A stretch of DNA of 64,000 bases. Source: an uncultured Pelagibacteraceae bacterium (GTDB lineage Bacteria; Pseudomonadota; Alphaproteobacteria; Pelagibacterales; Pelagibacteraceae). Numbering within the stretch: position 1 is the first letter of the stretch; each line of letters begins with the position of its first letter. The stretch is taken from NCBI GenBank assembly GCA_902587315.1, contig CACIKW010000002.1, forward strand, positions 1 through 64,000, read 5' to 3'. The notes under the pieces are model-generated. The model made no database searches. It was given only the letters and a program-made list of their open reading frames with translations, and was not told where the DNA came from. The position numbers and the translations under genes were made by a program. Of this stretch, positions 7,950 through 53,266 are shown in pieces.

Positions 7950-10025
7950 TTAACCTGTTTTTTTTACTACTTCGTCTTGAACATTTTGCGGAACTTTGTC
8001 ATAATGATCAAAGAACATTGAATACTGCGCCCTTCCTTGGGACATTGATCTCAAATTGTTAATGTAGCCAAACATATTTGCCAGAGGAACCATTGCTGTA
8101 ATTACTGTGGCATTTCCTCTTTGTTCTTGTGTATTTATTTGACCTCTTCTACTGTTTAAGTCTCCAATAACATCTCCCATGTAGTCTTCAGGGGTTACTA
8201 CTTCAACTCTCATTATTGGTTCTAATAATTTTAAAGTCGCCTTTTGACAGGCATCTTTAAAGCATTGTCTGGATGCTAATTCAAAAGCCAATACACTAGA
8301 ATCAACATCGTGATGCAGTCCATCAACTATAGTTACTTTATAATCTATAATTGGAAATCCAGCTAAAATTCCTGAATCAGATACTGATTCAATTCCTTTT
8401 TCAACTCCAGGAATGAATTCTTTTGGTATTGCTCCACCTTTAATTTTATTTTCTACCTCTCTACCTTTTCCAGGGTCAAGTGGTTCAATTTGAAGTTTTA
8501 CTCTTGCAAATTGCCCTGCTCCACCGCTTTGCTTTTTGTGAATATAGTCAGCTGTAGCGTTTCCCAATATAGTTTCTCTGTATGCAACTTGTGGAGCTCC
8601 TACGTTAGCTTCGACTTTAAATTCTCTCTTCATTCTATCCACAATTATATCAAGATGTAATTCTCCCATTCCTTTTATGATAGTTTGGCCAGATTCTTCA
8701 TCTGAAGTTACTCTGAAAGATGGATCTTCTTTAGCTAATCTCCCTAGAGCTTCACCCATTTTTTCCTGATCACCCTTCGTTTTTGGTTCAACTGCAATTT
8801 CTATTACTGGATCTGGAAACTCCATAGGTTCTAATAAAACTGGAGATTCTTCGTTAGCGAGGGTATGGCCTGTTATTGTGTATTTTAATCCTGCTAATGC
8901 GACTATATCTCCTGTATTGGCTTCTTTAATATCTTCTCTTGAATTTGCATGCATTAACAACATTCTGCCTACTCTTTCTTCTTTATCTTTTGAGGTATTA
9001 TAAATTCCTGTCCCTGATTTTATTGTGCCAGAATATATTCTAATAAATGTTAGTGATCCCACAAAAGGGTCATTTGCAACTTTAAATGCAAGAGCTGAAA
9101 AAGGTGCTTTATCATCAAATTTCATTTCAAGTTCATCTTTTGAACCTGGTTTTGTACCTTTTATTGAGCCTATGTCTTCCGGACTGGGCAAATAATCAAC
9201 TACGGCATCTAATAACGGTTGAACTCCTTTATTTTTAAAGGCAGAACCAGTTAGAACTGGTACAAAATCAAACTTCAAACATCCTTTTCTTATGCATTTT
9301 ATTAGATCATTCTCAGATATCTCTTTACCATTTAAATAATCTTCCATTAGTTTTTCATCTTCTTCCACGGCTAATTCAACTAATTCTTGTCGATATTTAT
9401 TAGCAGATTCTTTTAAATCTTCAGGAATATCTGTTATTTCAAATTCTGCACCTAGAGTTTCATCTTTCCAAATCACAGCCTTCATCTTAACAAGATCAAC
9501 TACGCCTTTAAGAGCAGATTCAATACCTATAGGTATTTGGGTAACTAATGGTCTAGCTCCCAATCTTTCCTTAATCATATCTACGCACATGAAAAAATTA
9601 GCACCTGTTCTATCAAGTTTATTAACAAAACAAATTCTTGGAACTTTATATTTATCAGCTTGTCTCCAGACTGTTTCGGATTGTGGCTCGACACCTGCGA
9701 CTCCATCAAATACTGCAACTGCACCATCCAATACTTTCAATGATCTTTCAACTTCAATTGTAAAATCTACATGACCAGGTGTATCTATGATATTAATTCT
9801 ATGATCCCTCCAAAAGCAAGTTGTTGCTGCAGATGTTATTGTAATTCCTCTTTCTTGTTCTTGTTCCATCCAATCCATTGTTGCTGCACCATCATGAACT
9901 TCTCCAATTTTGTGACTCTTGCCAGTATAGTATAATATTCTTTCTGTGGTTGTTGTTTTGCCTGCATCAATATGTGCCATTATGCCAATGTTTCTATATT
10001 TATTTAATGAATGAGTTCTGGGCAT
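7950..10025 (-). CDS. fusA: translation elongation factor G
   Basis: 691 residues from [21 protein letters not shown] longer open frame reaches 10184, but the extra 53 residues overlap rpsG and match nothing, so the start at 10025 (5 bp past the rpsG stop region) is chosen. The GTPase motifs [10 protein letters not shown] (P-loop), DTPGHVDF and NKLDRTGA are intact, and domains II to V follow ([20 protein letters not shown] in domain III, then the C-terminal domains). EF-G drives ribosomal translocation and recycling. Confidence 0.98.
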
Positions 10026-10029
10026 AGGA

Positions 10030-10500
10030 TTACCATCTAAAATGAGCAAAAGCTTTGTTTGATTCTGCCATTTTGTGAGTGTCTTCTTTTTTTTTAATTG
10101 CCAAACCTTTGTTTTGATAAGCATCATAAATTTCATTAAATATTTTATCTGACATTTTTTTATCTTTTCTTTTTCTAGATGCATCTATCAACCATCTAAG
10201 AGCCAAGGCTTGAGATCTTTTAGCTTTCACTTCAACAGGAACTTGGTATGTAGCTCCTCCAACTCTTCGAGATCTAACTTCTAAAGATGGTCTAATATTA
10301 CTTATGGCTTGATCAAAAATTTTTATTGGTTCGTCTTTTGATTTCGATTTAATTTTTTCTAAAGCATCATAAACTATTTTTTCAGCAATAGTTTTTTTTC
10401 CATTGTACATTATAGAATTAATTAATTTTGGTATTACTGTTGAATTAAATTTGGCATCAACAACTTGAATTTTTTTTGGAGCTTTCCTTTTTCTTGACAT
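10030..10500 (-). CDS. rpsG: 30S ribosomal protein S7
   Basis: 156 residues starting [20 protein letters not shown], with the S7 signature [20 protein letters not shown] and the end FAHFRW. S7 nucleates 30S head assembly and contacts the E-site. It is located between rpsL (3-bp gap) and fusA (4-bp gap). Confidence 0.97.
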
Positions 10501-10503
10501 GAT

Positions 10504-10875
10504 TTATTTTGATTTTTTTGCGCCGTATTTTGATCTTTGTTGTTTTCTATTTTGTACTCCTTGAGTATCTAGATTTCCCCTCAAAATATGGTAACGAACT
10601 CCAGGTAAATCTTTTACTCTTCCTCCTCTAATTAAAACCACTGAGTGCTCTTGAAGATTATGACCTTCTCCTGGTATATATGAAGTAACTTCATGACCGT
10701 TGGATAATCTAACTCTGGCTACTTTTCTAAGAGCTGAATTTGGTTTTTTAGGAGTTGTTGTGTAGACCTTTAAGCAAACTCCTCTTTTTTGAGGTGATTT
10801 TTCAAGGGCTGGGACTTTATCCCTAACCTTTGGTTTAATACGTTTCTTTTTCAACAACTGGTTAATAGTCGGCAT
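10504..10875 (-). CDS. rpsL: 30S ribosomal protein S12
   Basis: 123 residues from [21 protein letters not shown] longer open frame starts at 10956 but adds 27 residues with no S12 similarity that cover the promoter region, so 10875 is preferred. The decoding-centre loop [20 protein letters not shown] keeps the wild-type lysine at the position that gives streptomycin resistance when changed in other bacteria. It is the first gene after rpoC and probably begins the str operon. Confidence 0.97.
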
Positions 10876-10970
10876 AAATTTAAAATATATATTTTTGATT
10901 AAAATAACTGACTTATAATGTATGGCAGCGTTTAGAGCATTATGCACTACATCCAACCAAAAATATCGAC

Positions 10971-10998
10971 AAAATACAGTAGAAATTTATTTTGTCAA
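10971..10998 (-). promoter_or_regulatory. candidate sigma-70 promoter for rpsL-rpsG-fusA
   Basis: In the 154-bp gap between rpoC and rpsL the minus strand shows TTGACA (10993-10998), a 16-bp spacer and TATTTT (10971-10976). The -35 is a perfect consensus, the -10 is weak. It would leave a leader of about 90 bases before rpsL. Read-through from rpoC is also likely. Confidence 0.5.
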
Positions 10999-11029
10999 AC
11001 TATTTTAAATTAAATTTAAAGTCAGAATG

Positions 11030-14000
11030 TTACTGGTTTGCCTGTGTTTCCTTGCTTTCTGAGCCTTCCAGCTTTTGTTGTTCTGATAAAAACTTATTGT
11101 CATCTTCTATAGCTTTTTTGTTCCAATTATTTTTTATTGAACCAGTTCCCGCTGGAACTAATCTTCCAACAATGACATTTTCTTTTAGACCTTTTAATTT
11201 ATCTACTTTGCCTCTTATAGCGGCATCCGTTAAAACTCTTGTGGTTTCCTGGAACGAAGCAGCAGAAATAAATGATTCAGTTTGTAAAGAAGCTTTCGTA
11301 ATTCCCATAAGAATCCTTTCTCCAATTATTTCTTTTTTATTTTCTGCTATATTCTTTTCATTTAATTCATCAAATTTGCTTTTTTCAATTATTTCACCAG
11401 GTAGTAAACTTGTATCTCCGGGATCTTTAACTTCAACTTTTTTAAGCATCTGTTTTAAAATTGTTTCTATATGCTTGTCATTAATAATTACCCCTTGCAA
11501 TCTATAGACTTCTTGTACCTGGTTAACAAAATATTCTGTAAGTTCTTCAATACCAAGTATTCTTAAAATATCATGAGGCAAAGGTTGTCCATCAAGTAAA
11601 TATTCACCTTTTTTTATACTTTCTCCTTGGTTAAAATTAATATGCTTTCCTTTAGGTATTAAATAGTTTGATTCTTCACCATCTTCAGATTTAATTGTTA
11701 CTTTTTGTTTACCTCTGACTTCTTTACCAAAAATAACCTTACCGTCATTTTCAGCAATTATCGCACTATCTTTTGCTTTTCTGGCTTCAAATAATTCAGC
11801 TACTCTTGGCAAGCCTCCTGTTATATCTTTTGTTTTGGAAGTTTCTTTTGGTAGTCTAGCGATAACATCACCTGCAGATATTTTTTGACCATCCTTTACA
11901 GATAAAATTGAATCTGGAACAAGATAATATCTTGCTTCATTATCATCAGCTTTCTTAATTACTTTTCCTTTGTCATCCCTTAGGGTAATTCTTGGTTTAA
12001 GATCTGTATTTTTTGACTGGGTTTTCCAATCAATAACAGCTTTCGTTGAAATACCAGTTGCATCATCCATAGTCTCTGCTAGTGACACACCATCAATTAA
12101 GTCAACATAATTTGCTGTACCACTTTTTTCTGCAATCACTGGTGTTGTATATGGATCCCATTCACAAATTTTATCTTTTTTATTAACTTTGTCATCATTC
12201 TGGAAAAATAATTTTGAACCGTAAGGCACTTTATAAGATGCTATTTGTAACCCATTTTCATCCTCTATAGAAAGTTGAGTATTTCTTCCCATTACAATAA
12301 AATTTTTCTTTGAATCCTCAATAAGGTTTGTGTTCGTTATTTTTAATATTCCGTTTTTATTTGCTACTATCTGTGAGTCCTGTTTTATTGATGCGGTTCC
12401 ACCTACATGGAAAGTTCTCATTGTAAGTTGGGTTCCTGGTTCGCCTATTGATTGTGCTGATATCATTCCTATTGCTTCACCAACATGAACAAGTTTACCT
12501 CTTGCTAAATCTCTTCCATAACATCTCGCACAAACACCATCTCTTAAGCTACATGTTATTACTGAATAAACTTTGATAATTTTAACTCCTGAAGAATCAA
12601 TTTTTTCACATACTGCTTCATTTATCATTTCATTTTTTTTAATAATTACTTCACCTGATATAGGGTTTTTTACATCCATTGCGGCAATTCTTCCCAAAAC
12701 TCTTTCTGATAAACTTACAATTACATTACCTCCTTCAATAATTTCTGACAAAGTAATATGACCTGGTTTATCACAATTATTTTTAACTACTGTAAGATCT
12801 TGGGCAACGTCACATAATCTTCTTGTAAGATATCCTGAGTTTGCTGTTTTTAAAGCTGTGTCAGCCAAACCTTTTCTTGCACCGTGTGTAGAATTAAAAT
12901 ATTCAAGAGCTGTCAGTCCTTCTTTAAAATTTGAAGTAATTGGCGATTCAATTATTTCACCAGAAGGTTTTGCTATTAGACCTCTCATTCCAGCAAGTTG
13001 TTTCATTTGAGCTGCTGATCCTCTTGCCCCGCTATCAGCCATCATAAAAACTGAATTTATCTTTAAACCATCTTTTGTAACTTCTGTTGCAGAAATATTT
13101 TTCATCATCTCTGCAGCAACTCTATCTGTACATTTTGACCATGCATCAACAACTTTATTATATTTTTCACCTCTTGTTATTAATCCTTCAGAATATTGAG
13201 TTTCATATTCTGAAATCAACTTTTTTGTTTCATCAATAAGCTGTTGTTTATTTGAAGGAATAATTAAATCATCTTTACCAAATGATATTCCTGCCTTAAA
13301 AGCGTGTTTAAATCCCAAATTTTTTAATTTATCACAGAATATAACTGTAGATTTCTGACCTGAAAATCTAAAAACATGATCTATTATTTCAGATACTGTT
13401 TTTTTGGGCAATAGTCTATCAACTAATGAAAATTTATTATTTATATTTTTTGGTAAAAGATTTGATAATAAAAATCTTCCAGCTGTACTTATATGTTTTT
13501 CATATTTTGGATTGCCATTTTCATCAACTGTTTCAAATCTTGAAACTATTCTTGAATGAACTTTTATTTGTTTTGTTTCTAAAGCATGTTCAATATCTGA
13601 GATATTAGTAAAATATCCTTCGACTTTTTTGGTTTGATAAGGAGGTTGAGATAAATAATAAATTCCCAATATCATATCTTGACTTGGCACAATTATTGGT
13701 TTTCCGTTTGAAGGGCTTAATATATTGTTAGTAGACATCATTAAAACTCTAGCTTCTAATTGAGCTTCTAAACTTAATGGAACGTGAACAGCCATTTGAT
13801 CGCCATCAAAATCTGCGTTAAAAGCTGCACAAGTTAGTGGATGTAATTCAATTGCATCACCTTCTATTAACTTTGGTTCAAAAGCTTGAACTCCCAGTCG
13901 ATGTAAAGTGGGTGCTCTATTTAAAATAACAGGATGTTCTCTTACAATTTCTTCTAAGGCATCCCAAACTTCGGTTCTTTCCCTTTCAACTAATTTTTTT

Positions 14001-44255: not shown

Positions 44256-45026
44256 TTATTTATATTCTCTCCTTAATTGTTCAATTTTAATTTTTTTCTG
44301 GAGACTATTATTGCGATCGTAAAGTAGATTAAATCTAATTTTTTTATTTGTTTTTATAATTATATATTTTGCATTTCTCACTTCAACATTATCAGCAACT
44401 GCACTTATGGGTCTTTTTTTTATATTTAAATTTTTAATTTTTATTTTTGATTTATCGTTAACAATTTTACCCTTCCATCTTCTGGGTCTAAATGGGCTAA
44501 TCGGAGAGATAGAAAGCCTTTTTGAATTTAAGCTTAAAATGGGTCCATGAACTGACATATTGTATGCTGTACTACCCGCTGGTGTGGATACCAACACCCC
44601 GTCTGAAACTAATTTCTTAATTATTTTTTTTGATCCATTATAAATTGATATTGATGCTGTCTGCCTACTTTGTCTAAGTATAGAAACTTCATTAACTGCA
44701 ATCGATTTTTTTATATTATTAGATTTATTTTTTACTATCATTTCCAATGGTGAAATAGAAAAAACTTTAGCCTTTGTTAGGTTTTTCACAGTTTTATTTT
44801 TTAAAAATTTGTTCATTAAAAAACCATAGCTCCCTGAATTAATTCCATAAAATGATCTATTTACTTTATAAAGTTTTTTAATTGCTTGAAGCATAAATCC
44901 ATCTCCCCCTATCACGATAATCAAATTAGATTTTTTAATTGGAAAAGTTGTTATTTTTTTTTCTAAAAATTTTTTGATTTTTATAGAAAAATTATTTTTA
45001 TCAGAAAAAATATATGGTTTTATCAT
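44256..45026 (-). CDS. nadK: NAD kinase
   Basis: 256 residues. The GGDG motif (LIIVIGGDGFMLQAIKKLYK), the NE motif (AVNEVSILRQ) and the donor-site motif VSTPAGSTAYNMSVHGPIL are intact. It makes NADP from NAD and ATP. The last 66 bases are duplicated in decayed form at 37365-37430, so this 3' end may have been supplied by the adjacent island. The ATG is only 6 bases from the CCA end of tRNA-Leu, so the mRNA is probably released almost leaderless by tRNA processing. Confidence 0.94.
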   Translation of the reverse strand: MIKPYIFSDKNNFSIKIKKFLEKKITTFPIKKSNLIIVIGGDGFMLQAIKKLYKVNRSFYGINSGSYGFLMNKFLKNKTVKNLTKAKVFSISPLEMIVKNKSNNIKKSIAVNEVSILRQSRQTASISIYNGSKKIIKKLVSDGVLVSTPAGSTAYNMSVHGPILSLNSKRLSISPISPFRPRRWKGKIVNDKSKIKIKNLNIKKRPISAVADNVEVRNAKYIIIKTNKKIRFNLLYDRNNSLQKKIKIEQLRREYK

Positions 45027-45031
45027 TTTAT

Positions 45032-45117
45032 TGGTGCCCTCGGCCAGACTCGAACTGGCACTCCCAAAAGGGCAAGGATTTTAAGTCCTTTGTGTCTACC
45101 AATTTCACCACGAGGGC
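45032..45117 (-). tRNA. tRNA-Leu (TAA anticodon), intact
   Basis: 86 bases on the minus strand with acceptor GCCCTCG / CGAGGGC, encoded CCA and a class II variable arm. The anticodon stem is AAGGA/TCCTT with loop CTTAAAA, giving TAA. Its 5' half plus about 75 bp of upstream DNA (45078-45192) recurs at 52782-52896, and a shorter piece at 47560-47613. It is the target site of two tandem islands. Confidence 0.97.
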
Positions 45118-45192
45118 ATTAGTTATTTTCATGATTATTTATTCTAATATTTATAATTGAACAAGATTAATAAGTAAATTTTTTTTATTTTA
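45078..45192 (-). repeat. 115-bp repeat: tRNA-Leu 5' half plus upstream region, copy with intact tRNA
   Basis: Direct alignment with 52782-52896 shows about six mismatches over 115 bp. It runs from the anticodon loop of the tRNA through its 5' end into the region that should hold the tRNA promoter. Confidence 0.85.
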
Positions 45193-45201
45193 TCTTTTTA
45201 G

Positions 45202-45220
45202 GTACAAGTCTAGTACAAGT
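45202..45220 (+). repeat. tandem GTACAAGT repeats, proximal arm of first tRNA-Leu island
   Basis: GTACAAGT at 45202-45209 and 45213-45220, 11-bp period, just outside the duplicated tRNA-upstream segment. A 23-bp region here (45198-45220) recurs at 47411-47433 with one mismatch in the same orientation. Confidence 0.65.
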
Positions 45221-45257
45221 TATCCCATATTATCCTATAGAGTTTTAATTAAATTTA

Positions 45258-47384
45258 CTAAAATGTATTTACAACTTCTATGTTTGCACCATAGTCAGGT
45301 ATTTGACTCATCAAGCTATAGTTTGAACTCATTCTGATATCAAAACCATTTAAATCTCTCTTATAACTTAAAGATGCTTTGTCATTATCTAAAGTCATAG
45401 CATATTCAATATCGTCAGTTGGTATATAACCAAATCCTAAATATAAAGTGTCACTATGAGCATTGTCACTTTGGTTTCTTTCATAGATGGTCATTACAGA
45501 AAAACCGTTCTCAGTTATTAAATCAAATCCAATGTTTGCTCTTGCGTTCATTGCGTCTTGACCAATAGATTTTGTATATTTTTTAGTTTCAGAAAGATAA
45601 CGATATTTGGCATCTGAAGATGGGCTAAAGTCTAAACCAATCTCCAAACCTCCATTTGGCTTAAATGTCATAGTGTTTAAGCTAATAATATCACTTATAG
45701 TAAAACCATAAGATAACATTCCTGTTTCAATTGTTTGTTTATCATATACCAATGCAGTAGTTCCTTGTTCTCTATATTTGGATAGTTCTGTATAGCTAAG
45801 ATCAATTCTTATATTTGGAGCAATATTGAATTTATTTTTTTTATATCTTGTTAAATAATTAATTGATCCAAATACTTGTGCACCATCTCTTTCCCCAGTT
45901 CTAGTATATAAATCACCTTTTCTAACATGATCAGTCTTCAATGTGCTTATTCCAAGAATACCTTCAGTAAATCTTTTATCATCATGAGGAAAAGTTCCAT
46001 AAAGAGATAAGCTATAAGAATCAGTATCTAAAGATGTCCCAGAAGTACCTACATCAACATAATCATTACCAAATCGAAGAGCATAACCATACATTTTGTT
46101 TTCACTAATTTTTTTATCCATTCCAATTGTAATACCTTTACTATCAATTTTTTTTGATGATGAAGAAGATGTATCACCTACTTTACCAACGCTAACACTA
46201 CCTTCACTCCAAAATGACCAATTATCAGATAATTTATCTAAAGCATCATTCGTTTTGTTAGATACTGGAATAACTTTTGAAAGAGATGCCATCATTGAAT
46301 TTGAAAAGTTAAATTTAATATTTTGATTGCTTAATTTATCGTTAGTTCTATGACGTCTTAACCAATACATACGATTTAATACTGGAGTTGTTGAATGTAT
46401 GGCAATTTGTTTTGCTGTTGCTGTTTGAGATTCAATTGAACTTGAAATATCTTTACCTTCATCACTTGTATCCGCCGGATCATCACAAGCACCATCAATT
46501 ACACTCCAATTACAGCTTAGGTTAAATTCAAAAACTTTATTATTAGTATTACCAATTAAAAACATTTTACTTCCATCATGGCTGAATGTAACTTCTCTTG
46601 CATCTGTATCATGAGAACTTACATCAAAGGTACCTTCTAGGGAGTAAGTAGAAACATCATAAGGTGTGGTTAATTTAAACTGAGAAATAATATCATCGGT
46701 TCCACCATCAATGGTATACATTTTAGTACCATCGTGATTAAAAGTAACTCCATTGATATAACTGTGAAAAGAACTTAAGTCTTCAGTATTAAGATGTGTA
46801 ACTCCTGAGCTAAGATCAAATGCTGTATCTAGTGAATATTCATTAAGGTGATGTTGACTTTTATTTCCTACACCAGCAATAATCATTCTGGTACCATCAT
46901 TATTAAATGCAACGGAAGTTACTCTTTGTTCTTGGCCAGAAATATCATATCTACCATCAAGCGAAGCAGTTGAAACATCAAATGCAGTGGTTAGTGACCA
47001 GTAATCTATATTATTAGAAGCATGGTCAGCAATAAACATTTTTGTTCCATCGTTATTAAACACTACTTGGGTTGGTATAAGTGTATCACCATCTCCATGA
47101 GTTCCTGTTACATGTACTGTTTTAGTATTGTTTAAGGTTGCTGTTGAAATATCATAAGCAGTAGTTAACACATATTCGTAAACATTATCACTTTGTTGGC
47201 CACCACCACTCTTATCATATTGTGTAGTATACATTTTGGTACCATCATTATTAAATGTTAATCCAAATTCTCCGTCGTCTGCATTTATTGATTCACTTTG
47301 TACAAGAGTTGGCTCCGCTATAGCTTTAGAAAGAAATAAAACGAAAAAAAAAATAATGTAATGAATTTTAAAAATATTTTTCAC
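45258..47384 (-). CDS. beta-propeller passenger autotransporter-like outer-membrane protein
   Basis: 708 residues from a GTG at 47382-47384, chosen because it opens directly into a signal peptide (MKNIFKIHYIIFFFVLFLSK, cleavage likely after AIA). An open frame starting with TTG at 47441 would run through the repeat arm. The passenger holds five repeats of FNNDGTKMY type, about 45-65 residues apart, like blades of a beta-propeller. A Cys-containing linker follows, then a C-terminal barrel of about 280 residues (YGYALRFGNDYVDVG, GLEIGLDFSP) ending in Phe (IEVVNTF), the outer-membrane insertion signal. It is likely displayed on the surface for adhesion, binding or phage interaction. Confidence 0.8.
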   Translation of the reverse strand: MKNIFKIHYIIFFFVLFLSKAIAEPTLVQSESINADDGEFGLTFNNDGTKMYTTQYDKSGGGQQSDNVYEYVLTTAYDISTATLNNTKTVHVTGTHGDGDTLIPTQVVFNNDGTKMFIADHASNNIDYWSLTTAFDVSTASLDGRYDISGQEQRVTSVAFNNDGTRMIIAGVGNKSQHHLNEYSLDTAFDLSSGVTHLNTEDLSSFHSYINGVTFNHDGTKMYTIDGGTDDIISQFKLTTPYDVSTYSLEGTFDVSSHDTDAREVTFSHDGSKMFLIGNTNNKVFEFNLSCNWSVIDGACDDPADTSDEGKDISSSIESQTATAKQIAIHSTTPVLNRMYWLRRHRTNDKLSNQNIKFNFSNSMMASLSKVIPVSNKTNDALDKLSDNWSFWSEGSVSVGKVGDTSSSSSKKIDSKGITIGMDKKISENKMYGYALRFGNDYVDVGTSGTSLDTDSYSLSLYGTFPHDDKRFTEGILGISTLKTDHVRKGDLYTRTGERDGAQVFGSINYLTRYKKNKFNIAPNIRIDLSYTELSKYREQGTTALVYDKQTIETGMLSYGFTISDIISLNTMTFKPNGGLEIGLDFSPSSDAKYRYLSETKKYTKSIGQDAMNARANIGFDLITENGFSVMTIYERNQSDNAHSDTLYLGFGYIPTDDIEYAMTLDNDKASLSYKRDLNGFDIRMSSNYSLMSQIPDYGANIEVVNTF

Positions 47385-47414
47385 AGACACGATAGATACA
47401 CAAATATTATTTAG

Positions 47415-47433
47415 GTACAAGTTTAGTACAAGT
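47415..47433 (+). repeat. tandem GTACAAGT repeats, distal arm of first tRNA-Leu island
   Basis: GTACAAGT at 47415-47422 and 47426-47433 (11-bp period), upstream of the autotransporter start and matching the proximal pair at 45202-45220. Confidence 0.65.
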
Positions 47434-47510
47434 CTACTCAAAATAGTTTAGGCTTATTTTTTAAGCTTTATTTAAAGAGGATTTAAATTTATGTGATTTT
47501 ATAGGATGTT

Positions 47511-47536
47511 TAGACTGTCTTGGACTTCTATGGACT
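47511..47536 (+). repeat. three TRGACT repeats at 10-bp period
   Basis: TAGACT, TGGACT and TGGACT begin at 47511, 47521 and 47531, ending 24 bp before the first tRNA-Leu fragment. The unit differs from the GTACAAGT pairs, so a different recombinase or accessory protein may have used it. Confidence 0.5.
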
Positions 47537-47559
47537 GACTCTAATGTGAATCCCTCGGC

Positions 47560-47613
47560 TTTTAAGTCCTTTGTGTCTCCCAATTTCACCACGAGGGCAT
47601 GAGTTATTTTCAT
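47560..47613 (-). pseudogene. 5'-half tRNA-Leu fragment, copy 1
   Basis: It matches the intact tRNA-Leu from the anticodon loop to the 5' end, plus about 15 bp upstream, with one or two mismatches. The 3' half is absent. Eight bases just before it (CCCTCGGC, 47552-47559) equal part of the acceptor 3' region of the intact gene, so it may instead be a tRNA with its middle deleted. Confidence 0.85.
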
Positions 47614-47661
47614 TCTTATATCTCACCTACTTAATATCTCAACTTCATAAACGATTACTAA

Positions 47662-49783
47662 TTATTTTGAAATAGATTTTTTAACGATATTTTCTAAAAG
47701 TTTTGAAACATTATTATTAAAATTATTCCAAGGTAAACTTCCACAAAAGGTTATAGAACCGGTTGAAAAAACTGATCCACCTCCAGGAACTTCAAAATAA
47801 ACCATATCTGCTTGTAATATATCTTCTTCTGGAAGATGTTTTATATTTGACAGATGGGTTAAACGTGATTCTGGAACAAGTATAAAATTTTCCTTAGGAT
47901 CTTTCGATGCTTTAGATTGTGCTAATAAAGTTATATCTTTAATTGACGCTAGATGAGAATCTATATGATCTAATTCAAAACCTGCTGCTCCATTCCCGCT
48001 AAAACCAAAGTCACCGATAAAATTATCTTTTATGTCTTTAAAAATCCAATCAAATTTAGAGTCATAACATTTACGTTCATAAGGATGTCCATAAAAATTT
48101 CCTTGTGCTGTAAATCCAATTCCGACAAGTTCTTGTGGTGGTCTTCCATTTCTTCTCCATAAACCTCCATATGTTCCATCAAATGCATTGTAAGCTTCAC
48201 CAGGTTCAGATGCCCATGCACGAATACCTCCCTCGGGTCTTCTAATTTCTAATATACTTTTATTTTCTTTATGAATTGCAATGCGCCAGTAAAAACCATT
48301 TCCTCCTAAATAATTAAGTGATCCTCCATGATCACGAAAATCTCTTAGAGCGTCTAAAGTTTCTTTTGTATGATATTCTGGGTGTGATCCTGTGATAACT
48401 GTTTTATATTTTTTTATAGCTTTAAATCCATCTTTGTGAAGCTGTTCATCGGTAATAATTTCATAATCAAAACCTTTACTATGTAACCAACTAATTAAAT
48501 GACTATCAGCTTGAAAATGTCTTAATCCTGAACATGGATAATGCGATCCACCAAACGTTATATATCCTGGTCTTAAATTAAATAAAGGTCTTCTATGTGA
48601 TGCATGACAAATTCCAGCTCCATCAGAGTGATAATTATATGTAGAAAGACCATACTCTTTATGATTCGCAGCATTATATGGATAAGCTTTCCATTCTTTA
48701 ATTCTATTTAACCAACTATCTTTGTAATCAACGCGTGAATGGTTTCCGTAAATTGTATAAGTGAAAGTAGAAATTAAAATACAAATTTTAGATTTTGTTT
48801 TTCCAATAGTTGGTGCAACAAAAAAAGGCATTGAGTCATAATGATCTCCACAACTAATTTTCATTACATAAATACCTGATGGCATATTTTTTGGAATAGT
48901 AAATTTAAAATCTGTTTCCCATTCAAAATCATAAATATCATCTTCGTGAAAATGAATTGCCGCATAATGCTTAGGTTTATGTTGCCAGTTCATTTCTGAA
49001 TTGTCCCATTTAGAACTCGTAACAGCACGCGTTGGAAAGTTTTTTAATATCAATTTAGGACCAATAATTGATTCTACAAATGTAGAACTTGTATTTTTAG
49101 ACAAATCCCACTCTGCAATTGTTCTGCCATCTACAATTATTTTTGGTGACTCAATTTTTCCATTAAAGTGTTTATAACCCACTCCTTTAGTGACAATTGC
49201 TGCTAAGGAAATTTTACCAGAAATATGCTTGTTTATACTTAGTTTTCCTTTGTTAACGATGCTTTTTTCAGATTTGTTTTTTAGATTTTTTTGTAAGATA
49301 GTTACATTTCCATTTAATGAGATTTTAACTTTAATTTGATACCATGATCTTAATGACAAAGGTTCTTTAATAGAAATTGACTTGTCACCTATTTTGATAG
49401 CAGATGCTCCATCAGGATTTAAATAAATTTCAACATTATCAAATATTAAGATTGTTTGTTTTTTAGAAGATAAAAGAGTAGGAAAAATTATCACAGACAA
49501 AGTTAAATTTTTTTTAATAGTTTTATTTATTGGATTTTTTACTTATTGCGTAAGATCCTGGATTAAAATTTTGTTTTCTGGACTTGTATGTAGTTTTTTT
49601 AAAATATTTTGATGCATCTTTTTCAATTATACCTACTCCTTTTGGATTTGGATCTGCACTAATTGATCTTTTTAAACTTGCACCAAATGGTTTGTTTAAA
49701 GTTGAAGATACTTTAAATGATATTATTTCTCCTTGGCGTACTGATAATTTATCAGAGTATCCTATTAATGGAACGCTGCTCAT
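47662..49783 (-). CDS. N,N-dimethylformamidase large-subunit-like protein, frameshifted
   Basis: Two adjacent frames together make about 706 residues. The first (start 49783, MSSVPLIGYSDKLSVRQGEI) stops at 49523; the second continues to 47662. Removing one A from a six-A run (plus-strand T at 49535-49540) joins them without a stop. The C-terminal half has the family blocks CHASHRRPLFNLRPGYITFG, VITGSHPEYHTKETLDAL, NYLGGNGFYWRI and EIRRPEGGIRAWASEPG. DMFase splits dimethylformamide to dimethylamine and formate using iron in the large subunit; no small-subunit gene is seen, so a related amide may be the substrate. The start overlaps the dctM stop (ATGA). Either a sequencing error or a recent pseudogene. 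Confidence 0.75.
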
Positions 49784-51072
49784 CGGGTTGGTCCATAAAC
49801 TAAGTCAGGTAAATAAGTTACCCATTCTGAAAAGAATACTAAAATTAAAACCATTAAAACATATGGAATTAAAAGAGGTAAAACCCCAATAGATATTTCT
49901 TCAATTGAAATTTTACTAATTCTGGCGGCTACAAATAAGTTAATTCCAATTGGTGGTGTAAGAAATCCAATCTCACAAGTCATCACTGTGAATATTCCAA
50001 AAACAACAGGGTCAATACCAATTTTTGTTATTAATGGGAAAAATACAGCGGTGAAAATGATAATTTGAGGAATGCTTTCTAACCACATTCCAACTATTAT
50101 ATAAAGTATACCTATTAACAACATTACTAACCAAGGTTGACTTACTATACCTTGAAACAAACTTAGTATTGACTCAGGAATATCATAGATTGTTACTAAT
50201 TGACCAAAAGCTTTTGTTGAACCTAGTATAAATAATACTGTACCAATAACGATTGCTGTGAACTTAAATGCTTGAAATAATTTGCTCAAAGTTAGTCCTT
50301 TGTAAATAAAAAAACCTACAAACAAACCATAAGCAACCGCTACAGCAGCTGCTTCTGATGGAGTAAAAATTCCAGCATATATTCCACCTAAAATAAGAAT
50401 TGGAGCAAACACTGCCCATTTTCCATCCCATAATGCACAAAGTAGTGGCCTAAATACAAATTTTTCTCCATCTCCACCATAATTATTTTTTAATGAAATA
50501 ATAAAAACAACAACCATAAGCATTAAACCAAGAACTATTCCTGGTAGTATCCCTGCTAAAAAAAGTCTTGGAATAGAAATATCTGTTACAAGAGCAAATA
50601 TAATTAATAAGTTTGAAGGTGGAATCATGCTTCCTAAAGCTCCTGCAGCTGCTGCAATACCTCCAGCAAATCTAGAATCATAACCTTCTTTTTGCATCGC
50701 TGGAATTGTAATAGAACCAATAGCAGCAGTAGTAGCTGGACCAGAACCGGAAAGTGCAGCGAAAAACATACAAGCAACAACTGTAACTAAACCTAGACCC
50801 CCTTTATAAGCGCCAACTAATTTTTTTGCAATTGTAACTAATTTTTCAGACATTCCCCCATGCTCCATTAACTGTCCGGCTAAAATGAACAAAGGTATTG
50901 TAACTAATGGGAAAGGCTCAAATGCAGTCCAAGCACTTAGTGCCATAAGTGATAAAGGTATATCGGCAATTATTAAGCCCGCAACTGTTGCTATACCAGC
51001 AGAAAATGGAATTGGCACACCAATGGCCATAGTAAAAACAAAAATTAATGCCATGGCTAAAGGTCCACTCAT
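49780..51072 (-). CDS. dctM: TRAP transporter large permease, DctM family
   Basis: 430 residues from MSGPLAMALIFVFTMAIGVP; an extended frame to 51111 overlaps dctQ. About twelve membrane helices with the DctM pattern, for example AALSGSGPATTAAIGSITIP, GFLTPPIGINLFVAARISKI and GIFTPSEAAAVAVAYGLFVG. It forms the ion-coupled channel of the uptake system. Both ends overlap their neighbours by 4 bp (ATGA), so the operon is tightly coupled. Confidence 0.92.
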   Translation of the reverse strand: MSGPLAMALIFVFTMAIGVPIPFSAGIATVAGLIIADIPLSLMALSAWTAFEPFPLVTIPLFILAGQLMEHGGMSEKLVTIAKKLVGAYKGGLGLVTVVACMFFAALSGSGPATTAAIGSITIPAMQKEGYDSRFAGGIAAAAGALGSMIPPSNLLIIFALVTDISIPRLFLAGILPGIVLGLMLMVVVFIISLKNNYGGDGEKFVFRPLLCALWDGKWAVFAPILILGGIYAGIFTPSEAAAVAVAYGLFVGFFIYKGLTLSKLFQAFKFTAIVIGTVLFILGSTKAFGQLVTIYDIPESILSLFQGIVSQPWLVMLLIGILYIIVGMWLESIPQIIIFTAVFFPLITKIGIDPVVFGIFTVMTCEIGFLTPPIGINLFVAARISKISIEEISIGVLPLLIPYVLMVLILVFFSEWVTYLPDLVYGPTR

Positions 51073-51551
51073 AATGGTAAACCTTTCCATCCTGTGTTTT
51101 TCCACTGCCAATAAACTTGTAAAATTCTAAATAACATTAGGGCAAATATCATTGGAATAAACATTTGAAGCCACTTCAATTCTATATTCAAACCAGGAAG
51201 AACATAACTTACGTCAAATAAAAGTTGTGTATAAATTACAGTTTGATAAATCATAAAACCTACAAAAGTTAGCCAAAAAATATCTGCTAAAACAATAGAA
51301 CTGACTTGTATTTTTTTTGGAAAACGAAGCACCAAAAAAGTTATTCTTACATGAGCTCTTTCTTTAATGCCTAAAGCAGCTCCAAGATACACAGCAAAAA
51401 TTAAACCATAAACGGCTGTTTCTTCTGGCCAAGCAGCGGCTGAGGAAAAGCCAAATCTTAAAATTACTTGAGTTATTACTGAAATAAATACAACGCTTAA
51501 AAAAAATGTACAAAGCACTTCCTCAAAATATTTATTCAGTTTTTTTATCAT
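51069..51551 (-). CDS. dctQ: TRAP transporter small permease, DctQ family
   Basis: 160 residues with four predicted membrane segments, including FFLSVVFISVITQVILRFGF and AVYLGAALGIKERAHVRITF, where the ERAHVR motif is typical of DctQ. It pairs with DctM. A hairpin with a T run lies between dctP and this gene. Confidence 0.9.
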   Translation of the reverse strand: MIKKLNKYFEEVLCTFFLSVVFISVITQVILRFGFSSAAAWPEETAVYGLIFAVYLGAALGIKERAHVRITFLVLRFPKKIQVSSIVLADIFWLTFVGFMIYQTVIYTQLLFDVSYVLPGLNIELKWLQMFIPMIFALMLFRILQVYWQWKNTGWKGLPL

Positions 51552-51576
51552 TAATTGAATTATATCAAAAATTAAA

Positions 51577-51610
51577 AAAGGGCGCTTGTAATTTTAATTA
51601 TGCGCCCTTT
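51577..51610 (-). terminator. hairpin terminator/attenuator between dctP and dctQ
   Basis: A perfect 9-bp stem (AAAGGGCGC / GCGCCCTTT) with a 16-base loop. On the minus strand it is followed by a run of six T, so it looks like an intrinsic terminator directly after dctP. Partial read-through would give much more binding protein than permease. Confidence 0.75.
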
Positions 51611-51630
51611 AAATTTAATTGAAAATAAGT

Positions 51631-52641
51631 TTAGTTTCCAGCAGCTCTAATTGCTTGAACAAATGCTGTAAACTCTGCACCTTTTTCAGTTGCGTAACGA
51701 TCTTGTACACGTTGACCAGCTGCTATAAAGTCAGCACGCTCAAACTCAACTGTTTTCATCCCGCCTTGTCCCTCAGTTGTAAGGAATTTACGGATTTCAG
51801 AAGTAGCAGCACCCATCACTTCTTTTTGATAATCGCTAGCTTCTTTTGCAGCTCTAAGAAGTGCTTTAGTTTGATCAGCATCTAATTTTTTCATTAATCT
51901 TGGACTTGCCATTAATGGTGAAAAATATGTGAAATGTTCTAAAACTGTAAAATATGGCATTATTTCATAAAATTTTGCAGATTTAATAAATGAAGTTCCA
52001 TTGTCAGCTCCTTGAACAGTTCCTGTTTGTAATGCTGTTGGTGTATCTGCCCATGGTAGTGGTATAGGTGCAGCTCCAAATTCTTTAAATGTATCTATCA
52101 TCACTTGATTTTTTGGAACTCTAACTTTCAAACCCTTCATGTCAGCCATTTTTGTAATAGGTTGTCTTGAGTTGTAAAAATCACGATCTCCAACAAAACC
52201 GAATGCCAAAATATGAATTCCTGTAGCATCAAGTAGTTTCTTTTTGTAACTATCTCCAACAGGTCCTTCTAATACTTTATAAGCATGTGCTTTATTTTTG
52301 AAAATGTAAGGTAAAACAAAAGCATCGGTTAATGCAAAGTGTGGAGATAAATTGTTACCTGTAATAATACTCATATCTACAGTACCTAATTGCATTGCTT
52401 TAAAAGCTTCATCTTCTTTTACTAACTGTGCGCAGCATCTAACTTTTACTTCCAAACTGCCGTTAGAATATTTTGCTGCTAGTTCAGCAAATTTAACAGC
52501 TAATGGTTGATAAGCACTTTTTTCTCCGCCTCCGTGTCCTAAATTTATTGTAACATTGCCTGCATTAGCACTTTGCACAGATAAACTCATCGTAAAAACA
52601 AATGCTAATAACGCAAGAAATAATTTCTTTAATCTACTCAT
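51631..52641 (-). CDS. dctP: TRAP transporter substrate-binding protein, DctP family
   Basis: 336 residues with a signal peptide (LFLALLAFVFTMSLSVQSAN, cut near ANA-G). The DctP fold is seen in NLGHGGGEKSAYQPLAVKFA, GTVDMSIITGNNLSPHFA, KGLKVRVPKNQVMIDTFKEF and TALQTGTVQGADNG, with the conserved Arg in the KVRVP region. A strong ribosome site (GGGAGGA) precedes the ATG. It captures a small solute for DctQM; coupling to the amidase-like gene hints at a nitrogen compound, but TRAP proteins mostly bind carboxylates. Confidence 0.93.
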   Translation of the reverse strand: MSRLKKLFLALLAFVFTMSLSVQSANAGNVTINLGHGGGEKSAYQPLAVKFAELAAKYSNGSLEVKVRCCAQLVKEDEAFKAMQLGTVDMSIITGNNLSPHFALTDAFVLPYIFKNKAHAYKVLEGPVGDSYKKKLLDATGIHILAFGFVGDRDFYNSRQPITKMADMKGLKVRVPKNQVMIDTFKEFGAAPIPLPWADTPTALQTGTVQGADNGTSFIKSAKFYEIMPYFTVLEHFTYFSPLMASPRLMKKLDADQTKALLRAAKEASDYQKEVMGAATSEIRKFLTTEGQGGMKTVEFERADFIAAGQRVQDRYATEKGAEFTAFVQAIRAAGN

Positions 52642-52677
52642 TTTATCCTCCCTCTTGTTATTTTAATTCTATAGTCT

Positions 52678-52699
52678 GACTTCAATTTGAACTTGAGTC
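52678..52699. promoter_or_regulatory. imperfect palindrome upstream of dctP, candidate operator
   Basis: The 22-bp stretch starts GACTTCAA and ends TTGAGTC, an imperfect inverted repeat 37 bp upstream of dctP. Its position fits a regulator site. No regulator gene is nearby. Confidence 0.3.
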
Positions 52700-52781
52700 A
52701 AATTAATTATTTTTAGGTTTTAAATATAATTCAAAAAAAAAAATTAAGTTCAATTTAAAATTGTATTAATTTAAAAAAATT

Positions 52782-52896
52782 ATTTTAAGTCCTTTGTGTC
52801 TACCAATTTCACCACGAGGGCATGAGTTATTTTCATGAGTATTTATGCTAATATTTATAATTCAACAAGATGAATAAGTAAATTTTTTTCATTTTA
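52782..52896 (-). pseudogene. 5'-half tRNA-Leu fragment with upstream flank, copy 2
   Basis: 115 bp with about 95 percent identity to 45078-45192: the 5' half of tRNA-Leu from the anticodon loop, then about 75 bp of upstream DNA. The long shared flank suggests this is the native chromosomal side of the site. It ends at the stop region of the DUF4346-like gene. Confidence 0.88.
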
Positions 52897-53266
52897 TTAT
52901 TAAATCCTTATCTTGTACATAATTAAGATTATATTTTAAGGCTAGTTCAGCTTTACATAATTCAATACCCATATCTGCAGCGTGCTGAAGGCTAGATATG
53001 TATTTATTTCTTATTAATGTATTTACAATTTCTATTGCCGTTTTACCTGAAACTATCGATACCATATCATTGATAGGATTGCTTCCCAATTTTGTAAACT
53101 TGCAATAACCAACTCTTAGTAGTTTATTTTTTCTATCAATTTCTATTAGAAAGTAGCCTTTAGGATCCATAACCCAATCTTTAATTTTATGATATTTTGC
53201 TACTATCTTTTTTTTTATTTTTAAATTAATTTTGTACCATCTTCCATTTATGATTTTTTTTTTCAT
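52889..53266 (-). CDS. small DUF4346-like protein
   Basis: 125 residues, basic N-terminus. The central VMDPKGYFLIEIDRKNKLLR and YCKF resemble DUF4346, a domain also found next to thymidylate synthase-like and tetrahydropterin proteins. The C-terminal half (SGKTAIEIVNTLIRNKYISS, AADMGIELCKAELALKYN) fits a helical pair. Function unknown. It directly abuts the tRNA-Leu fragment, so it is the first gene outside the islands. Confidence 0.6.
   Translation of the reverse strand: MKKKIINGRWYKINLKIKKKIVAKYHKIKDWVMDPKGYFLIEIDRKNKLLRVGYCKFTKLGSNPINDMVSIVSGKTAIEIVNTLIRNKYISSLQHAADMGIELCKAELALKYNLNYVQDKDLIIK

Follow-up and report, generated by a model that had tools for sequence, protein, structure and literature searches.

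How do genes accumulate beside a tRNA gene in a genome in which no enzyme for their insertion can be found? We addressed this question at a tRNA-Leu(TAA) gene of an uncultured Pelagibacteraceae bacterium of the SAR11 group, which lies in a stretch of 64,000 nucleotides (contig CACIKW010000002.1 of assembly GCA_902587315.1, positions 1 to 64,000; hereafter the window). An earlier note on this DNA had described the locus as two cargo islands lacking a recombinase, inserted one after the other into the tRNA gene and bounded by copies of its 5' half. From comparison of sequences we find it likely that cassettes at this gene are mobilised in trans by the recombinases of satellite-like elements, with short doubled words at the cassette ends, here called tags, acting as recombinase-specific arm sites.

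One complete cassette adjoins the intact tRNA

ARAGORN found a single intact tRNA-Leu(TAA), the putative integration site, at 45,032-45,117 on the minus strand. A 116-bp direct repeat occurs here in three copies on a single strand and covers the 5' half of the tRNA together with ~76 bp upstream of it, in agreement with the earlier account of one intact gene and two same-strand 5'-half copies. Copy 1 (45,078-45,193, plus strand; core TTTTAAG at 45,079-45,085) and copy 3, the displaced 5' half (52,782-52,897, plus strand; core at 52,783), are 95% identical over their full length, and copy 2 (47,559-47,674, plus strand; core at 47,560) retains 63 bp at 92% identity (47,557-47,619). All three begin in the anticodon loop (TTTTAAGTCC), and a search of the window's own genome with the repeat returned them at E values of 8.7e-81, 2.1e-20 and 1.1e-47, the next match lying at 1.8e-5. 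The 76 bp upstream of the tRNA may hold its promoter, although a promoter scan showed no sigma-70 promoter there. The locus thus has an intact tRNA and displaced fragments that bound the inserted genes, as in a tRNA island, and its cassettes carry no integrase of their own; a PF00589 search of the genome, an 859-kb assembly that is 73.9% complete, gave no recombinase match, as the earlier note would have it.

Closer inspection of unit 1 (45,079-47,559) revealed a complete non-autonomous cassette in which every part is present. Its 8-bp tag is doubled at 11-bp spacing and stands at both ends: sequence inspection and pair scans placed the right-arm pair, GTACAAGT-N3-GTACAAGT, at 45,202-45,220 (45,202-45,209 and 45,213-45,220, plus strand) and the left-arm pair of the same form at 47,415-47,433 (plus strand), ~145 bp left of the next core. 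A cassette-type left end, TTATCCCATATTATCCTATA, occupies 45,220-45,239 (plus strand) and is an inverted relative of the right-end motif GATTTTATAGGAT at 47,495-47,507 (plus strand), which is followed by three arm-like AGACT/GGACT repeats at 10-bp spacing (47,512-47,536, plus strand). The sole cargo gene encodes an autotransporter (45,258-47,441, minus strand; PF03797, E 8e-31), and the start of this open reading frame (ORF) is probably set too far upstream, as the ORF crosses the left tag pair.

The lone autotransporter lies between copies 1 and 2, and tripartite ATP-independent periplasmic (TRAP) transporter and DMFA2_C genes between copies 2 and 3, the cargo order given previously; the equivalence of the two islands did not hold up. 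At the far end of unit 2 (47,560-52,782) both tags and arm repeats are missing. The upstream part of copy 2 has decayed and lacks a right tag pair, and copy 3 is without arm repeats on its left and without a tag pair on its right. Unit 2 may be an older, decayed or recombined unit, or one that was moved by other means.

Paired tags match between the two ends of an element

Comparison with related genomes indicated that ends organised like those of unit 1 occur in many elements. Within 75 bp on the left side of the core, at least two AGACT-like words were present in 29 of 34 half copies and at least three in 25 of 34, as against 0 of the 39 intact tRNAs that served as controls. To the right of the copied upstream region there is often a tag, an 8-bp word doubled at 11-bp spacing that varies among elements. 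Allowing for at most one mismatch, 43 of 73 cores have such a pair, compared with 95 of 7,100 shuffles and 46 of 1,478 offset windows; at least two of the 43 (in L048, and in L137 at 11,777) are off the usual position and probably arose by chance. The pair is mostly missing from copies next to the chromosomal flank.

At the opposite end of an element, ~145 bp left of the core, the doubled word recurs. An element's own tag was found exactly in its left arm in 23 of 28 cases and swapped tags in 19 of 726, and a blind search for left pairs recovered the same 6-mer in 21 of 23 elements, a set of elements with a right pair that omitted L061, L064 (two mismatches) and window unit 2. In unit 2 of L049 the left tag is present in another register, as judged by eye. 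An inverted end motif of the ATCCTATA/TATAGGAT type also marks 32 of 37 left and 17 of 23 right cassette ends.

For replication we searched a collection of 84,980 species genomes with the arm-plus-core pattern and no reference to the tags. This returned 86 stretches, and all 80 that we examined are titled Pelagibacteraceae, Pelagibacterales or Candidatus Pelagibacter. They hold 81 distinct right ends, 39 of which are without their other end in the stretch; from the remaining 42 complete elements we dropped two from genomes already used and one without a right pair. The left arm carried the word of the right pair in 35 of the 39 new elements, compared with 68 of 1,258 swapped comparisons, and the set includes at least 18 tag words, some being one tag in another register. 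Because the stretches are at most 8 kb long, the size range obtained is biased towards short cassettes. A chance origin of the repeats was ruled out by the E values within the window's own genome and by the shuffle and offset controls on tag pairs, and tandem duplication of the tRNA region was rejected because arms and tags flank the copies.

Occupied and empty sites in related genomes

We sought the tRNA with its upstream region in 61 genomes, comprising 60 relatives of the genus and the window's own. Matches occurred in 43, with a copy that includes the 3' half of the tRNA in 40, and by hand count 19 of these 40 carry one to three further copies beginning at query positions 42-49, in two cases (G007 and G042) on another contig. 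In 40 stretches fetched from relatives the half copies diverge from the tRNA at one common base, save the degenerate copies of L061 and L076, and a NAD kinase homologue adjoins the tRNA in most. In the window the NAD kinase gene, an ORF named by eye and not scanned, lies on the 3' side of the tRNA (44,256-45,026, minus strand).

The earlier note had proposed that empty sites should exist and that other genomes should hold different cargo between the same fragments. Different cargo was indeed found in the relatives, in keeping with additive flexible genomic islands, in which variable cassettes accumulate at a tRNA between partial-tRNA repeats. An empty site was found as well: four genes, of which the first two look AzlD- and AzlC-like by eye, immediately follow the tRNA in L073, and their counterparts in L137 (83-96% protein identity) are separated from the tRNA by an inserted element and a 5'-half copy. 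A search of 120 other genus genomes for the gene at the window's own distal flank (DUF4346) gave no match, and an empty site with that flank was therefore not seen. Repeated insertion into one tRNA gene is supported by these comparisons, and in the window it is the complete, presumably newer unit that adjoins the intact tRNA.

We used NAD kinase identity as a loose yardstick for host distance, against which several cargo pairs show no excess. Among the autotransporters compared, that of the window is closest to the one in L053, which has the same tag and 89% protein identity, with NAD kinases at 71%; for L038 and L069 the values are 88% vs 71%, for L050 and L069 73% vs 82%, and for the window and L050 74% vs 75%, again without excess. 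Autotransporter identities thus appear not to track those of the NAD kinases.

Satellite-like elements at the same site encode a recombinase

Viral contigs gave no match to a 54-base pattern, and a shorter core pattern was present in 23 of them. Four of the 23 (L108, L123, L127 and L129) bear AGACT-like arms and a doubled tag and encode a tyrosine recombinase of 545-549 aa, a large primase/helicase and small proteins. The start of the recombinase gene lies ~100 bp away from the core, in L127 once the 99-bp redundancy is discounted; its product scores 23.6 bits in Pfam, under the curated cut-off of 27.1, and matches an integrase in PHROGs at 4e-20. The large protein of L108 matches AEP-TOTE and DUF5906, and a 113-aa protein of the same element is RusA-like. 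Eight L108 and two L127 proteins were scanned without a convincing capsid match, the other elements being compared by blastp only. Terminal repeats of 99 bp in L108, 123 bp in L123 and 99 bp in L127 indicate that these contigs are probably circular or concatemeric, and this terminal redundancy is only suggestive of packaging by a helper phage.

Related elements are integrated in chromosomes. In L137 and L146, satellites of 7.8 and 8.8 kb lie between the intact tRNA-Leu and a 5'-half copy, and in L138 a more distant satellite with GGGTC instead of AGACT repeats heads an array with two cassettes. Elements of this kind that carry the recombinase measure 7.7-8.9 kb, and L108, L123, L127, L137 and L146 combine an integrase and replication genes without a full virion set, the composition of phage satellites. 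One end of L146 is identical over 37 bp (GACTACCACGGACTGACTCGTCTGTGAATCCCTCGGC) to a cassette end in L042, and its tag, TGTGCTGG, is also found on other cassettes. Three of the seven chromosomal recombinase relatives (L137, L138 and L146) are at tRNA-Leu; the core pattern was not found in the fetched stretches of the others (L139, L140, L145 and L147), three of which are contigs shorter than 10 kb. L147 (G662) and L139 (G248) are satellite relatives of similar gene order that perhaps sit at other sites. No relatives of the L108 recombinase were found among annotated phages, and short peptide patterns for the recombinase, searched in the species genomes, returned 187 stretches, none of which was confirmed.

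When 64 units of 0.7-6.4 kb, with 131 ORFs in total, were searched with a hidden Markov model (HMM) of nine satellite recombinases, no ORF matched; the three control matches are all sequences on which the model was trained. A recombinase acting in cis was rejected on this result and on the lack of PF00589 matches in the window's incomplete genome. The missing recombinase therefore has a candidate source in the satellite-like elements that occupy the same site.

The 5'-half geometry, which had been thought to set the islands apart, is also used by the satellites and by the pelagiphage HTVC105P, in which 46 nt of the same tRNA-Leu half lie beside an integrase gene (297 aa); judged from these sequences, it is a property of the site and not of the islands alone. 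Nine further contigs (L112, L114, L118, L109, L117, L120, L122, L125 and L128) hold the same tRNA-Leu half with other arms, and in L112, L114 and L118, the three with an ORF listing, an ORF of 282-297 aa ends at most ~125 bp right of the core, like the integrase gene of HTVC105P.

Tags vary with the recombinase N-terminus

When the satellite recombinases were compared, differences in tag were accompanied by differences near the N-terminus. Those of L124 and L126 are 95-98% identical at residues 136-545 and 50-60% at residues 1-135, and their tags differ (GGGCAACT and GGGTAACT, each on both arms). L108 and L129 have a common tag and N-terminal blocks that are 90-100% identical, whereas L123, with another tag, falls to 57-60% at residues 79-108 and stays at 93-98% over residues 136-545. 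This is the divergence expected if the N-terminal, putatively arm-binding part reads the tag. It also makes it less likely that the tags are replication iterons. A profile search of solved structures with the recombinase gave no match.

The recombinases of L127 and L137 have the reverse of the L124-L126 pattern, being 72-78% alike at residues 1-135 and only 47% at residues 136-330, which suggests that the N-terminal part has been exchanged between satellites.

Proposed mobilisation in trans and its alternatives

In the mechanism that we propose, the tRNA-Leu(TAA) gene of SAR11 is the integration site for a family of non-autonomous cassettes. In a complete cassette attachment site (attP), a left arm with paired tag and AGACT-like repeats would be followed by a core within the anticodon loop, by a new tRNA 5' half and the region upstream of it, and by a right arm in which the paired tag is repeated. 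The tyrosine recombinase of a satellite-like element that uses this site would act in trans: it would bind the tags, and probably the AGACT-like repeats, and recombine in the anticodon loop, joining the incoming 5' half to the 3' half in the chromosome and displacing the resident 5' half outward. The tRNA would stay intact because the cassette supplies a new 5' half with upstream region, and repeated insertion would build an array in which the youngest cassette adjoins the tRNA and old 5'-half copies mark each step. The tag would be an arm-type binding site for the N-terminal part of the recombinase, co-diversifying with it. A stronger version, in which satellite recombinases diversify their arm-binding domain together with the doubled tag and enzyme-less cassettes follow by acquiring that tag, so that each cassette is addressed to one recombinase specificity, has in our judgement about as much speaking for it as against it.

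Several observations weigh against mobilisation in trans. Neither excision nor transfer of a cassette was observed, nor a circular form. Few SAR11 chromosomes encode the recombinase, relatives being present in 0 of 61, 4 of 397 and 5 of 399 genomes (searches with different thresholds, two genomes being in common), while cassettes are common, and only three cassette tags (GTTTCTAG, GATCCTAG and TGTGCTGG) have a same-tag satellite here. The N-terminal covariation is based on nine recombinases, and an AlphaFold2 model of the recombinase was of too low confidence (mean predicted local distance difference test score 34) to show an arm-binding fold. The attP sites of cassettes and satellites also differ: the inverted end motif was found at 0 of 4 left and 0 of 6 right satellite ends, the left tag spacing is 11 bp in cassettes vs 25 in satellites L123, L137 and L146, and the cassette upstream region resembles that of the chromosome and differs from those of the satellites. 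Left and right tags differ in unit 1 of L052, a true exception, and in four of the 39 new elements (L159, L163, L222 and L226); these four may be hybrids that arose by recombination or when an inner core was lost. The window's unit 2 can be accommodated only if it is a decayed member. In the cassette shared by L045 and L052 the cargo is less alike than the NAD kinases (81% vs 93%), and recent transfer is therefore not suggested by every comparison.

We weighed these points against three other explanations. Cassettes could be decayed satellites that lost their genes and are now immobile, their arms and tags being remnants; this would account for the arm repeats, core and tag layout and the one identical 37-bp end in common with L146, but we hold it to be improbable, as tags are still matched between ends in most new elements, the end motif and left tag spacing of cassettes were not seen in satellites, 69 cassette ORFs gave one weak match (E 8e-4) to satellite proteins, and the cargo is varied. 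On these grounds the cassettes do not appear to be simply small satellites. It seems similarly unlikely to us that cassettes are now exchanged chiefly through homologous recombination, at the 115-bp repeats or in flanking core genes, and only a little by site-specific recombination. The long near-identical repeats, the hybrid appearance of elements with mismatched tags, and a TRAP block in L058 (86.7% DNA identity) whose boundaries lie away from the repeats all speak for it, yet it leaves unexplained both the paired tags at fixed distance, matched between ends, and the AGACT-like arms. Homologous recombination may well act in addition to site-specific mobilisation and explain the TRAP unit. 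The host's Xer-like recombinase (~325 aa) is a very improbable mover: PF00589 matches occur in 44 of 61 genus genomes, mostly as one protein of 310-337 aa, but the cassette arms resemble those of satellites with their own recombinase and the tags covary with that enzyme. To our knowledge, Xer recombination needs no such tag pairs. Collectively, these comparisons leave mobilisation in trans by satellite recombinases as the explanation that we prefer.

Unit 2 and the cargo of the cassettes

The genes of window unit 2 all lie on the minus strand. A DMFA2_C-like gene (N,N-dimethylformamidase beta-like; PF20254, E 5e-91) is broken by a frameshift into a main part at 47,662-49,500 and another ORF at 49,523-49,783, as recognised by comparison with L058, where it forms a single 723-aa ORF; either the gene has recently become a pseudogene or the split at 49,500-49,530 is an assembly error within an A-rich run. 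It is followed by the TRAP transporter genes for DctM (49,780-51,111) and DctQ (51,069-51,551), both assigned by eye and position and not scanned, and for DctP (51,631-52,641; PF03480). The same TRAP/DMFA-like block extends over 5.1 kb in L058, near the same tRNA with a different gene intervening, and the similarity ends short of the repeats.

A Pfam scan of 50 proteins, of which 45 belong to units of relatives and five to the window region, found no recombinase among them. Matches included type I restriction-modification proteins, an EcoRI-type methylase with a GmrSD/HNH nuclease, an Mrr nuclease, a pilin-like protein adjoining a reprolysin-type peptidase, a carbamoyltransferase, a major facilitator superfamily (MFS) transporter, and HalD-like and ATP-grasp proteins; many of the scanned proteins had no Pfam match. 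One cassette in L138 (2,919-6,575) holds six pilin-like paralogues with a common N-terminus, and in the satellite contig L129 a 966-aa ORF, helicase-like by eye (9,405-12,305, oriented), may be defence cargo. The 5,129-bp viral contig L116 has a cassette-type end (5' half, upstream region and doubled tag ATGTACAG) at its extreme edge together with a PhoH-like gene resembling those of cyanophages, and is either a phage genome with a cassette end or a chimeric assembly.

Relation to known elements

Tycheposons and virion-encapsidated integrative mobilizable elements (VEIMEs) are tRNA-targeting marine satellites with a tyrosine recombinase and replication genes, the hallmark of tycheposons being a deep-branching tyrosine recombinase. 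The satellites described here resemble them; the cassettes, in which no satellite recombinase was found, do not qualify as tycheposons, which carry the recombinase and hallmark genes within the element. The cassettes have att sites at both ends and no recombination genes and lie in tandem at one site, as do cis-mobilizable elements (CIMEs), which derive from conjugative elements and accrete in tandem. CIMEs move by accretion in cis, whereas matching tags here suggest action in trans, and cassette-like ends were found on satellite-like elements, no search having been aimed at conjugation genes. We know of no description of matched hypervariable tags, and titles and the starts of abstracts in the open-access papers searched revealed nothing on such tags or on this tRNA-Leu array.

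Islands that grow by cassettes at tRNA genes, with variable cargo and partial-tRNA direct repeats, have been reported in Actinomarinales (PMC7771536) and Methylopumilus (PMC10872708). The portions of these reports considered here describe no recombinase, arm sites or tags, unlike the arms and tags of the present cassettes, and the Methylopumilus repeat comprises the last 20 bp of tRNA-Lys rather than the 5' half of tRNA-Leu (PMC10872708). The part of PMC11389934 drawn on here discusses or mentions, as satellites or as elements that depend on a helper, clusters of attC sites lacking integron-integrases (CALIN arrays), miniature inverted-repeat transposable elements (MITEs), tycheposons and VEIMEs. 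CALIN arrays, which also form arrays, and MITEs resemble the present system in that enzyme-less units are mobilised in trans through shared recognition sites, as we infer for the cassettes; they differ in using attC sites or transposon ends, where the cassettes have an attP with arms in a tRNA gene and each would restore the host gene. In 2013, 46 bp of a Pelagibacter tRNA-Leu, its isoacceptor not named in the portion consulted, were reported from a HTVC019P-like phage (PMC3861242). Like the cassettes, that phage and HTVC105P carry one half of such a tRNA-Leu, which in the phages lies beside or accompanies an integrase gene; HTVC105P differs in being a phage genome (Autographiviridae by its record) with a 297-aa integrase. 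In the part seen of a paper on SAR11 variation, one hypervariable region is noted to contain an integrase gene and another to be flanked by tRNAs (PMC2217521).

Implications for gene exchange in SAR11

Although tRNA cassettes have been reported in streamlined marine bacteria, their mover is not stated in the portions of those reports considered here (PMC7771536, PMC10872708). From sequence we propose a candidate recombinase and its recognition sites, among them a tag specific to each element, which would make each cassette's helper predictable. If the pairing of each tag with one recombinase specificity is true, the set of tags would allow one to read off which genes are moved by which satellite, and might also document an arms race between satellites and their hitchhikers. 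SAR11 are among the most abundant bacteria of the ocean and, given that the cassettes carry restriction-modification systems, nucleases, transporters and surface proteins, the proposed mobilisation in trans would offer a testable route for marine gene exchange.

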